Assembly: GCF_019203985.1 (NCBI RefSeq)
Contig: NZ_JAGSPD010000001.1
Location: forward strand, 248,001 to 312,000
DNA: 64,000 nt
Direction of reading: 5' to 3'
Source: Winogradskyella luteola
GTDB lineage: Bacteria > Bacteroidota > Bacteroidia > Flavobacteriales > Flavobacteriaceae
In this document: positions 49,312-52,633 of the stretch, in pieces
Layout: every line of letters starts with the position of its first letter
Numbering within the stretch: position 1 is the first letter of the stretch
Notes under the pieces: generated by a model
Told to the model about the DNA's origin: nothing
The model's database searches: none
What the model saw: only the letters and a program-made list of their open reading frames with translations
Translations under genes and position numbers: made by a program

Positions 49312-50724
49312 ATGAAGACGGTATCTTTGGTAGAAACCAATAAATTTAATATGTCCAAAGGTTCAAAAACTATAGAAACTATCAACCCATGTAATGGAGA
49401 ATCACTAAAGACTTATCCATATCAAACGGATTCAGAAATTAATGACAAATTAAAATTAGCTGATACAATCTTTGCAGATTGGAAAACCAAATCAATAAAT
49501 GAGAGAACAGAGTTATTGGACAGCCTTTATAACAATTTAAGTCATTCAAAAGAAAAGCTCAGTGAACTCATTACGTTAGAAATGGGAAAGCCCATAACGG
49601 AGAGTAAAGCAGAAATTGATAAATGCCTGCTTCTAATCCAATTTTATAAAAAAAACGCAGAACAATTTCTAGCTGATGTGTTAATTGAAACAGAAGCTCA
49701 CGAAAGTTATATCAGTTATGATCCATTGGGTTGCATCTTAGCCGTAATGCCATGGAACTATCCTTTTTGGCAAGTGTTTAGATTTGCAATTCCAACATTA
49801 ACAGCAGGTAATGTCGCATTGCTAAAGCACGCCTCAAATGTAACGGGCTGTGCGCTTGCTATTGAAGAATTATTTTTGGATTCAGGTTTTCCCAAAGGTG
49901 CTTTCCAAACTTTATTGACCAACCATGATACCATCGAAAAAATTATTGGTAATACTATTGTAAAGGCCGTAACCCTAACCGGGAGTGAAAAAGCAGGCAA
50001 AAGTATAGCAGCTACTGCTGGTAAACATCTTAAAAAAACACTTCTGGAACTAGGCGGAAATAATGCCTGCATCATTTTAAAAGATGCAGATTTAGATAAG
50101 TATTTAGACACTATCGTTAAAGCCAGAATGCAGAATTCTGGACAGAGCTGCATTGCCGCAAAACGCTTCTTGGTCGAAGAAACTATTTATGATGAGTTTT
50201 TAGAGAAGTTCACAGAAAAAATAAAAGCTCTAAATTATAACAATCCTTTAGATGACAAAACAAATATGTCCTGTTTAGCAAGACCAGATTTAGCGGAAAC
50301 TTTGGAGCAACAAGTATCCAAATCCATTGACAAAGGTGCCAAAGTACATTATGGCAACACCAGAGACAAGGCTTATTATCAACCTACCATATTAACAAAT
50401 ATCTCAGAAGATATGGATGTATTTAAAGAGGAAACTTTTGGACCGTTAGCACCGATTATGAAGGTTAAAAATTTAGACGAAGCCATTAAATTGGCTTCAA
50501 AATCAAGTTTTGGACTCGGTACAATGATTTTTACCGAAGATTATAAAACAGCTTCAAAAAAAGTTCTGGATATTGAAGATGGAGCATACTTTATAAACGA
50601 ATTGGTAAAATCTGATCCTAGACTTCCTTTTGGAGGTACAAAGGCCTCTGGTTACGGAAGGGAACTATCTAAAGAAGGCATACTAGAGTTTGTAAATAAA
50701 AAAACAGTATTTATTAATAAATAA
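49312..50724 (+). CDS. NAD(P)-dependent aldehyde dehydrogenase (succinate-semialdehyde type)
   Basis: 470 residues. The Rossmann domain and catalytic core are complete: MPWNYPFWQVFRFAIPTLTA near residue 148, NAD-site TLTGSEKAGKSIAATAGKH near 223, catalytic Glu in LLELGGNNACIIL near 245, and catalytic Cys in NSGQSCIAAKRFLVEE near 280. The C-terminal RLPFGGTKASGYGRELSKEG is typical of the GabD/Sad branch. Substrate may be succinate semialdehyde or another small aldehyde. The ATG at 49351 (MSKGSKTIETIN) is an equally likely start. A 50-residue membrane protein gene follows 11 bases later. Confidence 0.88.
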   Translation: MKTVSLVETNKFNMSKGSKTIETINPCNGESLKTYPYQTDSEINDKLKLADTIFADWKTKSINERTELLDSLYNNLSHSKEKLSELITLEMGKPITESKAEIDKCLLLIQFYKKNAEQFLADVLIETEAHESYISYDPLGCILAVMPWNYPFWQVFRFAIPTLTAGNVALLKHASNVTGCALAIEELFLDSGFPKGAFQTLLTNHDTIEKIIGNTIVKAVTLTGSEKAGKSIAATAGKHLKKTLLELGGNNACIILKDADLDKYLDTIVKARMQNSGQSCIAAKRFLVEETIYDEFLEKFTEKIKALNYNNPLDDKTNMSCLARPDLAETLEQQVSKSIDKGAKVHYGNTRDKAYYQPTILTNISEDMDVFKEETFGPLAPIMKVKNLDEAIKLASKSSFGLGTMIFTEDYKTASKKVLDIEDGAYFINELVKSDPRLPFGGTKASGYGRELSKEGILEFVNKKTVFINK

Positions 50725-50735
50725 AATTAAATATT

Positions 50736-50888
50736 ATGAAATTTGTAAAAGAAGAAGAAGAGGAAAGAGGTGATTATATATTACAGAAAGATACCAAAAC
50801 CAAAGTTGGTGCAACGTTTATTATTGTAACGTTGATCATTTTAATAATTGCTGTAGTAATTTCAGGAATATTTTTTGAGTGGTACTAA
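50736..50888 (+). CDS. Small single-span membrane protein
   Basis: 50 residues (MKFVKEEEEERGDYILQKDT, then a membrane helix of about 22 residues ending in FFEWY). The N-terminus is strongly charged and would lie in the cytosol. It begins 11 bases after the aldehyde dehydrogenase stop, so it is probably co-transcribed. I have no family name. The clear charged/hydrophobic layout and the tight spacing argue for a real gene. Confidence 0.55.
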   Translation: MKFVKEEEEERGDYILQKDTKTKVGATFIIVTLIILIIAVVISGIFFEWY

Positions 50889-50979
50889 CACCATAAATGT
50901 AAAAACGCACAATCCTATTCAGTAATACAATAAAGTGATATAGACAAAATATCACCTCTTGGCTTATCAAAAAAAGCAA

Positions 50980-51019
50980 AAAGATCCTCTTATGAAATAA
51001 AATTTCTACGAGAATCTTT
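50980..51019 (-). terminator. Terminator of the tRNA-Pro transcript
   Basis: AAAGATTCTC / GAGGATCTTT on the minus strand with one mismatch and a 20-base loop, followed by a T-rich run (TTTTTGCTTTTTTT). It lies 15 bases after the tRNA 3' end. Confidence 0.55.
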
Positions 51020-51033
51020 CTACTTTTAATTTG

Positions 51034-51108
51034 TCGGGGTGGCAGGATTCGAACCTGCGACCTCCGCGTCCCAAACGCGGCGCGATAACCGGGCTACGCT
51101 ACACCCCG
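51034..51108 (-). tRNA. tRNA-Pro (anticodon UGG)
   Basis: 75 bases on the minus strand. A perfect 7-bp acceptor stem CGGGGTG / CACCCCG with discriminator A, anticodon stem CCGCG / CGCGG around the loop TTTGGGA (anticodon TGG), and T-arm GCAGG-TTCGAAT-CCTGC. No CCA is encoded. The first ten bases also carry the last codons and the stop codon of the GIY-YIG gene. Confidence 0.95.
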
Positions 51109-51110
51109 AA
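51059..51110. repeat. 52-bp direct repeat, copy in the intact tRNA-Pro
   Basis: Covers the acceptor 5' strand, D-arm and anticodon arm of the tRNA. Matches 51381-51432 at 50 of 52 positions. Confidence 0.85.
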
Positions 51111-51341
51111 ACAGTTATCAATATATCGTTTTGCTCCTCTCTTTTTGATCTTCTTTTCCAGTAGCATAGCCTCTGAACGATCATTTACCTCAATCTGCAA
51201 AATGACTTTCCATGGTATTCCTATTCTTGTTGAAGGAACTTTTCCTTGGTTATGTCTTTCCAATCTTTTTTCGATATCTGAAGTTTGACCTACATAATAT
51301 CTAGAACGTTTTTCACTAAAAAGTATATACACTGTAAACAC
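51099..51341 (-). CDS. GIY-YIG nuclease family protein, tRNA-associated
   Basis: 80 residues. The family's name motif is present as VYILF ... YYVGQTSDIEKRLERHN (positions 4-30), with the catalytic Arg in KRLERH and Glu in MLLEKKIKKRGAKRYI. Single-domain proteins of this kind are related to the nuclease half of UvrC and to homing endonucleases. The ORF reads into the tRNA-Pro gene: codons TTC GGG GTG TAG span the tRNA's first ten bases, so the stop codon is bases 8-10 of the tRNA. A decayed tRNA-Pro lies 13 bases upstream. Whether the nuclease cuts the tRNA gene, as homing endonucleases do, is inference. Confidence 0.8.
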   Translation of the reverse strand: MFTVYILFSEKRSRYYVGQTSDIEKRLERHNQGKVPSTRIGIPWKVILQIEVNDRSEAMLLEKKIKKRGAKRYIDNCFGV

Positions 51342-51353
51342 AATCTTACTTCT

Positions 51354-51430
51354 ATGGGGTGGTCACGCCATCAGCGTGACGACCTCCGCGTGCCAAACGC
51401 GGCGCGATAACCGGGCTACGCTACACACCG
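51354..51430 (-). pseudogene. Decayed tRNA-Pro copy with replaced T-arm
   Basis: The D-arm and anticodon arm are intact (loop TTTGGCA, still anticodon TGG but with C at position 37). The acceptor stem CGGTGTG / CACCCCA has two mismatches. The T-arm is gone; in its place is a perfect 7-bp hairpin, GTCACGC-TGATG-GCGTGAC, without TTC. It should not be accepted by translation factors. Confidence 0.75.
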
Positions 51431-51432
51431 AA
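51381..51432. repeat. 52-bp direct repeat, copy in the decayed tRNA
   Basis: Matches 51059-51110 with two mismatches, at an offset of 322 bases. The GIY-YIG ORF lies between the two copies. Confidence 0.85.
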
Positions 51433-51532
51433 GATATAGTTGTCATTTTAGGACTGCAAATATAGAATTTTTCTTTACAATCCAACAACATTTTTTTAAC
51501 TTTAAAAATTGATTCACTACCCATTTATAATC

Positions 51533-52633
51533 ATGAAATTAAGACTTCCTATTCTCGGATTAATCCTAATAAGCATATTAACTTGTGCTCAAGATAAGAA
51601 TCCCATCAACACTAAAAATGACCATGAAATTATAGTGCCAGATTTAGACATTCCTTGGGCATTTACATTTCTCCCCGACGGTTCAATGCTAATAAATGAA
51701 AAAGAAGGCAGACTCATTCATTTTAAAAACCATAAGAAAACTGAAATTTCTGGCTTACCTGAAATCTATGTAAGAGGCCAAGGCGGATTAATGGACATAC
51801 TTCTTCACCCTAATTATGAAGACAATGGTTGGATATACTTTTCGTATGCATCTTCAAAAGGTGAAGGAAACGGTGGAAACACAACCATTGCAAGAGCCAA
51901 ATTAAAAAATAACACACTTATTAATTTTGAAGTACTATATAAGGCCGAGCCAAATTCTAGAAGAGGGCAACACTTTGGGTCGCGTTTAGTTTTTGATACG
52001 GATGGCTATTTATTTTTTACCATTGGTGATCGTGGTGATAGAGATACCAATCCACAAGACCTAACTAGAGATTGTGGCAAAGTATATCGACTTAATGCTG
52101 ATGGTACAATTCCAGAAGACAATCCCTTTATAGATACCCCTAAAACTAAAAAGGCAATTTATTCGTACGGACACAGAAATCCGCAAGGTATGGCGCTTCA
52201 TCCTAAAACAGGAGACATTTGGACTCACGAACATGGTCCAAAGGGCGGAGATGAAATTAATATTATAGCGGCTGGTAAAAACTATGGCTGGCCAGTCATT
52301 AGCTATGGCGTAAATTATAGCGGAACAAAATTTACTGACATCACAGAAAAAAAAGGTATGGAACAACCACTTCATTATTGGACACCTTCAATTGCACCAA
52401 GCGGTATGGCTTTTATCAATAGCAACAAATATGGTAATTGGAATGGTAACCTCTTGGTCGGATCATTAAAATTTCAATATCTAGACATGTGTACCATAAA
52501 AGACAATAAAGTGATAAAGGAAGAACGCTTATTAAATGAATTAGGAAGAGTAAGATGTATTGAACAGGGTCCTAGTGGTTATATTTATGTTGGTATTGAA
52601 AATTTAGGCATTGTAAAACTTATAAAGAAATGA
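51533..52633 (+). CDS. PQQ-dependent aldose sugar dehydrogenase, lipoprotein-like
   Basis: 366 residues from ATG 51533 (the TTG at 51509 is a less likely start). Signal LISILTC suggests lipidation, with Thr before Cys. The six-bladed propeller shows the soluble-glucose-dehydrogenase pattern: IPWAFTFLPDGSMLINEKEG, the active-site His in RGQHFGSRLVFDTDGYLFFT near residue 140, and SYGHRNPQGMALHPKTGDIW near 205, then THEHGPKGGDEIN. Members oxidise aldose sugars with PQQ in the periplasm and hand electrons to a cytochrome. A c-type cytochrome gene overlaps its stop by four bases. No PQQ synthesis genes are in the window. Confidence 0.88.
   Translation: MKLRLPILGLILISILTCAQDKNPINTKNDHEIIVPDLDIPWAFTFLPDGSMLINEKEGRLIHFKNHKKTEISGLPEIYVRGQGGLMDILLHPNYEDNGWIYFSYASSKGEGNGGNTTIARAKLKNNTLINFEVLYKAEPNSRRGQHFGSRLVFDTDGYLFFTIGDRGDRDTNPQDLTRDCGKVYRLNADGTIPEDNPFIDTPKTKKAIYSYGHRNPQGMALHPKTGDIWTHEHGPKGGDEINIIAAGKNYGWPVISYGVNYSGTKFTDITEKKGMEQPLHYWTPSIAPSGMAFINSNKYGNWNGNLLVGSLKFQYLDMCTIKDNKVIKEERLLNELGRVRCIEQGPSGYIYVGIENLGIVKLIKK

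Follow-up and report, generated by a model that had tools for sequence, protein, structure and literature searches.

The short element beside the tRNA-Pro(UGG) gene of Winogradskyella luteola probably belongs to a family of minimal elements of the homing type, without introns and spread across the Bacteroidota, in which each lineage is specific to one tRNA gene that its nuclease would cut and in which copies would spread by homing. The unit of these elements, of about 300-490 bp, holds a single-domain GIY-YIG nuclease ORF and a copy of part of the target tRNA, usually broken by a palindrome. The observations behind this reading are the anatomy of the loci, their association with tRNAs and the strand on which they lie, the target specificity of each lineage, presence and absence among relatives, tandem arrays, purifying selection in diverged pairs, and a lower synonymous divergence than that of host genes. 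In the following, the window is the whole stretch of DNA that was analysed, with a length of 64,000 nucleotides.

On the minus strand of the window, a promoter-like TATATTTGCA (51455-51464) is followed by a second copy of tRNA-Pro (psi-tRNA), a hairpin, a scrap of acceptor stem, the nuclease ORF and the intact tRNA-Pro(UGG). The intact gene (51033-51108) is the one tRNA that ARAGORN reports in the window, as tRNA-Pro(TGG); it reaches 67.8 bits with Rfam RF00005, and in an Rfam scan of 50700-51700 tRNA is the sole family at its gathering score. The ORF (51099-51341) encodes 80 amino acids from a GTG start, and its TAG stop codon is formed by positions 8-10 of the intact tRNA-Pro, with an overlap of 10 bases between both genes. 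According to the Rfam scan and Pfam, it is a stand-alone GIY-YIG domain outside any intron or intein. The psi-tRNA keeps about 51 nt, corresponding to its 5' part (positions 1-51, at 51380-51430), and the copied stretch includes 2 nt upstream (51380-51432). After position 51, the place of the T-arm is taken by a perfect hairpin, GTCACGC-TGATG-GCGTGAC (51362-51380), behind which a remnant of the 3' strand of the acceptor stem is left (CACCCCA, 51355-51361). The hairpin pattern is found at one place in its own genome, which rules it out as a genome-wide repeat there; the identical stem sequence follows tRNA position 51 in other tRNA-Pro elements, such as L045, L063, L066 and L213.

The direct repeat formed by both tRNA copies (51058-51110 and 51380-51432) is 53 nt long and 96% identical, with a start-to-start distance of 322, within one base of what the preliminary description had claimed. 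This offset defines a 322-bp unit (51109-51430) made up of psi-tRNA, hairpin and ORF, in which no integrase is found and the GIY-YIG ORF is the sole recognised gene. The preliminary description also placed the ORF between an intact and a decayed tRNA-Pro and proposed that it had integrated together with a complete tRNA, leaving the old copy to decay. The order and the displacement of the old copy hold, as does the idea of a selfish element directed at a tRNA gene without intron or intein, which is well supported, with cleavage as its postulated step. In contrast, gradual decay is ruled out because one arm has been cleanly exchanged for a palindrome, as is also seen at other tRNAs. The duplication covers no more than a portion of the tRNA (here positions 1-51), and carrying this portion is enough for the element to restore the gene. 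The earlier interpretation of the locus is thus partly supported.

The protein matches the Pfam family PF01541 (GIY-YIG) with an E value of 2.4e-15 and 57 bits, the cut-off being 22.6. Residues Y5, Y16, G18, R26, H30 and E62, which we take to be those of the GIY-YIG catalytic motif, are invariant in alignments of 18 and of 20 sequences. An AlphaFold2 model of the window protein has a mean pLDDT of 94.6, and its top Foldseek ranks are occupied by UPF0213 (1zg2), SLX1, I-TevI and UvrC, with a best E value of 2.2e-3 and no match reaching 0.001. In a sequence-profile search of the PDB, the best matches are the UPF0213 proteins 1zg2 (E 6.7e-13) and 1ywl (E 6.6e-12), followed by SLX1. SLX1, I-TevI and UvrC are DNA nucleases. 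Two negative results count against the homing reading. First of all, the protein holds no domain beyond GIY-YIG, which weighs on the matter of target specificity. Second, no vehicle was found, since the window protein, as sole query, has no match in a phage collection of 50,697 records at E 1e-3 or in a plasmid collection; carriage by phages or plasmids is therefore unsupported.

The mobility proposed in the preliminary description implied that relatives without the ORF should carry a single tRNA-Pro and that presence of the ORF should vary, and both expectations agree with the genus. Sixty genomes were searched with the neighbouring sugar-dehydrogenase gene, which gave matches in 38, and the best 30 loci (including that of the window) were taken. 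At 23 of these 30, the syntenic position holds one tRNA-Pro and neither an ORF nor a further tRNA copy. At L189 the tRNA-Pro lies 1.3 kb away, also without ORF, and five loci (L181 and L193-L196) show no tRNA inside the stretch examined; one of them, L195, belongs to G021, whose element sits further upstream (L045), next to the small gene that also flanks the window element. Beside this gene, Winogradskyella tangerina (L213) holds two identical 323-bp units, and consequently three states, with none, one or two units, exist at one locus among relatives. Within the genus, 15 of the 60 genomes have a match of at least 65 bits, in a patchy distribution.

When the window is aligned with ten empty sites, the 322-bp unit is missing from all ten, and the conserved promoter-like region runs straight into the psi-tRNA, which indicates that the psi-tRNA stands where the 5' end of the ancestral tRNA stood. 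The ten bases of TATATTTGCA are identical in all 11 aligned genomes, 10 of which lack the element. Nevertheless, the two tRNA parts could recombine with each other and so regenerate precisely the empty allele; for this reason the empty sites alone are no proof of gain or of the direction of change. In a tree built from the neighbouring gene, starred branches part the three species that bear the element (23 rows are without element and 5 are unscored), and G010, the nearest relative of the window genome in that tree, has no element. Synonymous-site differences of the ORF in the three species pairs are 0.34, 0.48 and 0.47, in comparison with 0.62-0.81 for three host genes (GSDH, cytochrome c and uridine kinase), estimates which for the ORF rest on 80 codons. 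The 95% intervals of ORF and host genes are separate for the pairs G000-G021 (G000 being the window genome) and G021-W. tangerina. In the pair G000-W. tangerina, there is overlap between the ORF and both GSDH and cytochrome c, and none between the ORF and uridine kinase. This lower divergence suggests transfer of the ORF between species, as far as so few codons can tell.

Similar ORFs are found well beyond the genus. A search with the single protein detected homologues in 31 of 60 genomes (its own included), many of them by tRNAs and some in tandem arrays. With the alignment of 18 sequences, 109 of 199 genomes of the family gave a match at E<=1e-12, a threshold that admits other GIY-YIG ORFs too, and a hand count among the matches listed yields at least 60 of the 199 with a match of at least 73 bits. 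A sample of 296 genomes from the phylum includes 121 with a match at E<=1e-18. From these searches, 157 loci that scored at least 65 with the HMM were obtained, chosen by score and not by tRNA, after removal of duplicates and without the window locus; three pairs that are more than 90% alike (L021/L159, L043/L048 and L125/L161) were kept because they are separate places.

A tRNA lies within 400 bp at 134 of the 157 loci, on the strand of the ORF in 134 out of 134, with doubtful tRNA calls excluded (135 loci if they are included). The expectation by chance is about 1%, as calculated from 46 tRNAs in 3.5 Mb. Several of the 23 loci with no tRNA in range are arrays or lie at contig ends. In a first set of 33 low-scoring GIY-YIG loci, a tRNA was near only six, five of which are apparently broken members; the other 27 have none within 400 bp, and in this respect the window family would differ from proteins of the UPF0213/SLX1 type, if those loci encode such proteins. 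Related ORFs were also seen on contigs titled Chlorobiota, Deltaproteobacteria and Thermodesulfovibrionales (L218, L220 and L235), with L218 and L220 beside tRNAs, and these represent either a wider spread or misbinned contigs.

The anatomy of the window recurs in this collection. At 119 of 137 testable loci, a part-copy of the neighbouring tRNA is present on the far side of the ORF at p<=0.005 with respect to shuffles. A part-copy score of at least 14 is reached at 107 of the 137, compared with 3 of 137 in the wrong-tRNA control and with 0 of 46 flanks of element-free tRNA-Pro genes. A further control with other tRNAs consisted of 10 windows, two of which were positive (a second tRNA-Gly in L048 and a tRNA-Pro in L109), which makes it a weak one, less reliable than the 46 element-free flanks. 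The far-side copy is absent at p<=0.005 in 18 of the 137 loci, including 5 of 7 His loci. These counts were obtained with the nearest tRNA, so that L022, L158, L043 and L065 were paired with a neighbour instead of the target (two scored as matches and two as misses), and L048 left the test through a 250-bp rule. The false tRNA-Gly of L044 and the SeC, Stop and Phe(aaa) calls were removed by hand, and L053, L057, L094, L119, L129, L156 and L227 were admitted below score 65. At L033, associated with tmRNA, a part-tmRNA was looked for and none was found. Since the layout of the window recurs in more than 100 loci, it is not a product of chance.

Two arrangements can be distinguished. The upstream type (59 loci) has the order seen in the window, with the 5' part of the psi-tRNA, hairpin, ORF and intact tRNA. 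The downstream type (78 loci), in which the elements follow tRNAs and the tRNA 3' part and terminator are duplicated, shows intact tRNA, terminator, ORF, hairpin, and a psi-tRNA 3' part with a copy of the terminator. Among 53 loci of the upstream type, the last tRNA position of the psi-copy is 22 in 21 cases, 51 in eight and 14 in six; in the downstream type, the copy starts at position 45 or 46 in 22 of 66. These breakpoints fall near the boundaries of tRNA arms and loops. Next to the ORF, 90 of 137 loci show a perfect stem of at least 7 bp that includes at least 4 G/C (some of these stems being terminators), against 2.2% of shuffles, and a stem of at least 7 is present in 85 of the 119 loci that have a part-tRNA. 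The ORF ends inside the tRNA in 34 of 54 loci of the upstream type, and in 23 of the 54 its stop codon is formed by tRNA positions 8-10.

Some of these psi-tRNAs can be mistaken for genes. ARAGORN calls tRNA-SeC(tca), suppressor tRNA(tta) or tRNA-Gly(tcc) on hairpin-bearing copies (L021 1414-1493, L071 1786-1862, L159 1713-1790, L074 1393-1461 and L044 2862-2940). True tRNA-SeC or suppressor tRNAs near some ORFs were considered and rejected in favour of hairpin-bearing psi-tRNAs, because the calls are sited where the psi-tRNA of tRNA-Val sits. Such calls in public genomes are likely to be false tRNA annotations. Part-tRNAs with a palindrome and no intervening ORF also occur, behind the intact tRNA-Pro in L045 and L213 and upstream of the intact tRNA in L022, L044 and L057; they are perhaps scars of lost elements. 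The window genome holds a second element (G000:C12:133011-133729, L044), in which tRNA-Arg(TCT) is followed by two ORFs at a distance of 353 bp from each other; it lies in a Ser-Pro-Arg tRNA cluster whose tRNA-Pro(TGG) is intact and element-free. Two weak partial tRNA matches are found near a large tRNA cluster of this genome (G000:C33:124843-124893 and 128044-128111).

Every lineage of the ORF keeps to one tRNA target. In a tree of 112 ORFs, 97 of which carry a tRNA label set by hand (15 rows are unlabelled), the target requires 23 changes, with a minimum of 14 and a shuffled mean of 72.5, and none of 200 shuffles is as low. Six broken ORFs (L053, L057, L077, L094, L119 and L129) were excluded from this tree, whose alignment is short and many of whose forks are unresolved. 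Contrary to the target, the label of the genus needs 52 changes, no better than the 52.8 expected by chance from shuffles (75 rows, 22 genera). This is by itself no proof of transfer, because one genus holds several target lineages. ORFs from the same genus with the same target often cluster, and spread beyond a genus may accordingly be rare.

This specificity bears on two other explanations. As tRNA genes are common integration sites, the ORF might be a passive passenger at insertion hot spots, where the nuclease would play no part in its own placement. This is very unlikely given that the ORF lineage predicts the tRNA target, that 119 of 137 loci hold a part-copy of the neighbouring tRNA and that the unit of the window has no other gene. 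The tie of each lineage to one tRNA would also suit a toxin and decoy pair at the RNA level, with the tRNA molecule as substrate of the nuclease and the psi-tRNA as decoy or antidote. Nevertheless, the retained part of the tRNA, its side (5' or 3') and the position of the hairpin vary between loci, and the nearest folds of known function are the DNA nucleases SLX1, I-TevI and UvrC, so that such a pair is very improbable.

Two or more full ORFs are present at 46 of the 157 loci, with a maximum of eight. Among genomes that consist of a single contig, G034 shows six units of 427 bp at tRNA-Asn, G561 five units of 315 bp, and G011 seven ORFs 378-381 bp apart near tRNA-Phe, the first of which is cut by an inserted sequence. 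In G034, G561, W. tangerina and others, adjacent ORFs of an array show 100% identity, and those of the eight-member array (L122) only 86-96%. In those arrays that were read together with their tRNA (L040, L041, L042, L213 and L228), one intact target tRNA is found, at one end. Values of dN/dS between 0.15 and 0.28 in 6 of 9 ORF pairs indicate purifying selection in diverged pairs; two close pairs gave 1.00 and 0.55, and one further pair is saturated in dS. As a separate observation, two arrays of G011 (L041 and L054) have their first GIY-YIG ORF directly bordered by a shared end sequence, apparently from an insertion sequence, and the same end sequence borders the start of a part-tRNA in G014 (L048).

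According to the homing reading, the nuclease would cut the cognate tRNA gene on an element-free chromosome, and repair of the break would copy the palindrome, the ORF and the duplicated part of the tRNA from a chromosome that bears the element. An intact tRNA would then be rebuilt next to the ORF from the carried part, as the anatomy and the empty sites suggest for both steps. In carriers, repeated cutting of the intact tRNA, followed by misaligned repair on the psi-tRNA, may add units and generate tandem arrays in which the intact tRNA is kept. The palindrome would disrupt the target site of the psi-copy and thereby confine cutting to the intact tRNA. This is the weakest step, because the intact tRNA has not been altered and is expected to stay a target. 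The intact tRNA-Pro beside the window ORF is identical to that of several element-free relatives, the psi-copy being the one altered by the hairpin, and it should hence stay cleavable, unlike in classical homing.

The closest known parallel is SegB from phages T4/T6, likewise a GIY-YIG nuclease gene beside tRNAs with no intron. SegB of T6 cuts inside tRNA genes, with the motif RAWTSGAAC enhancing cutting, its nuclease activity is required for the tandem amplification of tRNA-Tyr together with segB, and it raises tRNA dosage for the phage under Septu attack (PMC13096335). The co-localisation survey in the same paper covers proteins of phages and archaeal viruses (PMC13096335). Free-standing endonucleases of T4 are reported to spread via break repair without an intron (PMC2988022). 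In contrast to SegB, for which no favoured tRNA isotype is reported (PMC13096335), the family of the window has one tRNA target per lineage, is chromosomal and single-domain (80 amino acids in the window), and carries a part-tRNA with a palindrome. The elements are best filed as a variant of free-standing homing endonuclease elements that, as far as anatomy tells, would work like SegB; in the phage records searched with it at E 1e-3, the window protein has no match. A literature search covering few subscription papers yielded no account of such an arrangement on bacterial chromosomes.

The precedent of SegB, the tandem arrays and the purifying selection in diverged pairs could also be taken to mean that the nuclease has been domesticated by hosts for a higher tRNA dosage, the effect that SegB has in T6. 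The arrays, however, multiply the ORF and a broken tRNA, with a single intact target tRNA in the five arrays named above, and the distribution is patchy (15 of 60 genomes in the genus), which renders this possibility highly improbable. A further likeness is to integrative elements that use tRNAs as attachment sites, which are flanked by a direct repeat of part of the tRNA and keep the tRNA intact. The unit of the window differs from them in that it lacks an integrase, and the elements in having units of about 0.3-0.5 kb and in repeating either the 5' or the 3' part.

If the homing reading is correct, a large share of the Bacteroidota (121 of 296 genomes at the threshold above, the association with tRNAs being known from the fetched loci) would carry selfish elements of about 0.3-0.5 kb on tRNA genes that are kept intact, and intronless homing would be extended from phages to bacterial chromosomes. 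It would offer a collection of natural enzymes that are each directed at a single tRNA gene, account for tandem part-tRNA arrays and false tRNA calls, make it testable how a single-domain nuclease of 80 residues gains its specificity, and provide a candidate agent for dispersed palindromes.

Palindromes of the TCCCGA type are present in 61, 44, 35, 22 and 20 copies in G011, G017, G034, G012 and G021, and in 0-9 copies in the remaining 32 of the 37 genomes of the genus set, with 0-1 copies of a reversed control in all 37. These five palindrome-richest genomes all have ORFs of the tRNA type, and the five other element-bearing genomes of the set hold 3-8 palindromes. The numbers of palindromes and of elements per genome are correlated (Spearman 0.45, p 0.005, 37 genomes, kinship ignored), with element counts set by hand and palindromes inside fetched element loci removed. 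On the ORF tree, the class of palindrome requires 4 changes, against a mean of 17.8 and a minimum of 14 in 60 shuffles (55 rows), a result confounded with the tRNA target.

These data raise the alternative that GIY-YIG proteins mobilise dispersed palindromes in the way of REP-associated transposases, the psi-tRNA hairpin being a copy that lies beside the gene. As in REP/RAYT systems, a small nuclease gene is accompanied by a short palindrome, with dispersed copies in some genomes. The palindrome class follows the ORF lineage, the five richest genomes carry the ORFs, and two of them (G017 and G021) have no Y1 transposase (PF01797) at E<=0.001, which leaves a REP transposase unsupported as the source of their palindromes. 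Despite this, the hairpin of the window stands at one place in its genome, which has 4 TCCCGA palindromes in spite of its two element loci. G048, from another family, holds 66 palindromes and three Y1 hits, yet no match to the window protein at E<=0.001. The correlation, moreover, ignores phylogeny, and palindrome class and target are confounded. The window ORF also differs from REP/RAYT systems in being GIY-YIG and not a Y1 (HUH) transposase, and its unit is built on a tRNA gene. On balance, this alternative appears quite unlikely. It is unlikely, too, that the unit of nuclease ORF and half a host tRNA is a categorically new minimal mobile element, in which an SLX1-like, structure-selective nuclease would recognise folded arms of tRNA genes and swap them for palindromes, with the same family both spreading on tRNA genes and seeding the dispersed palindromes of the Bacteroidota. 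Another palindrome, TCCCGATAGCTATCGGGA, is dispersed in 17, 9 and 21 copies in G011, G034 and G017, and some of the 15 copies that were read (L197-L211) seemingly lie within larger imperfect hairpins.
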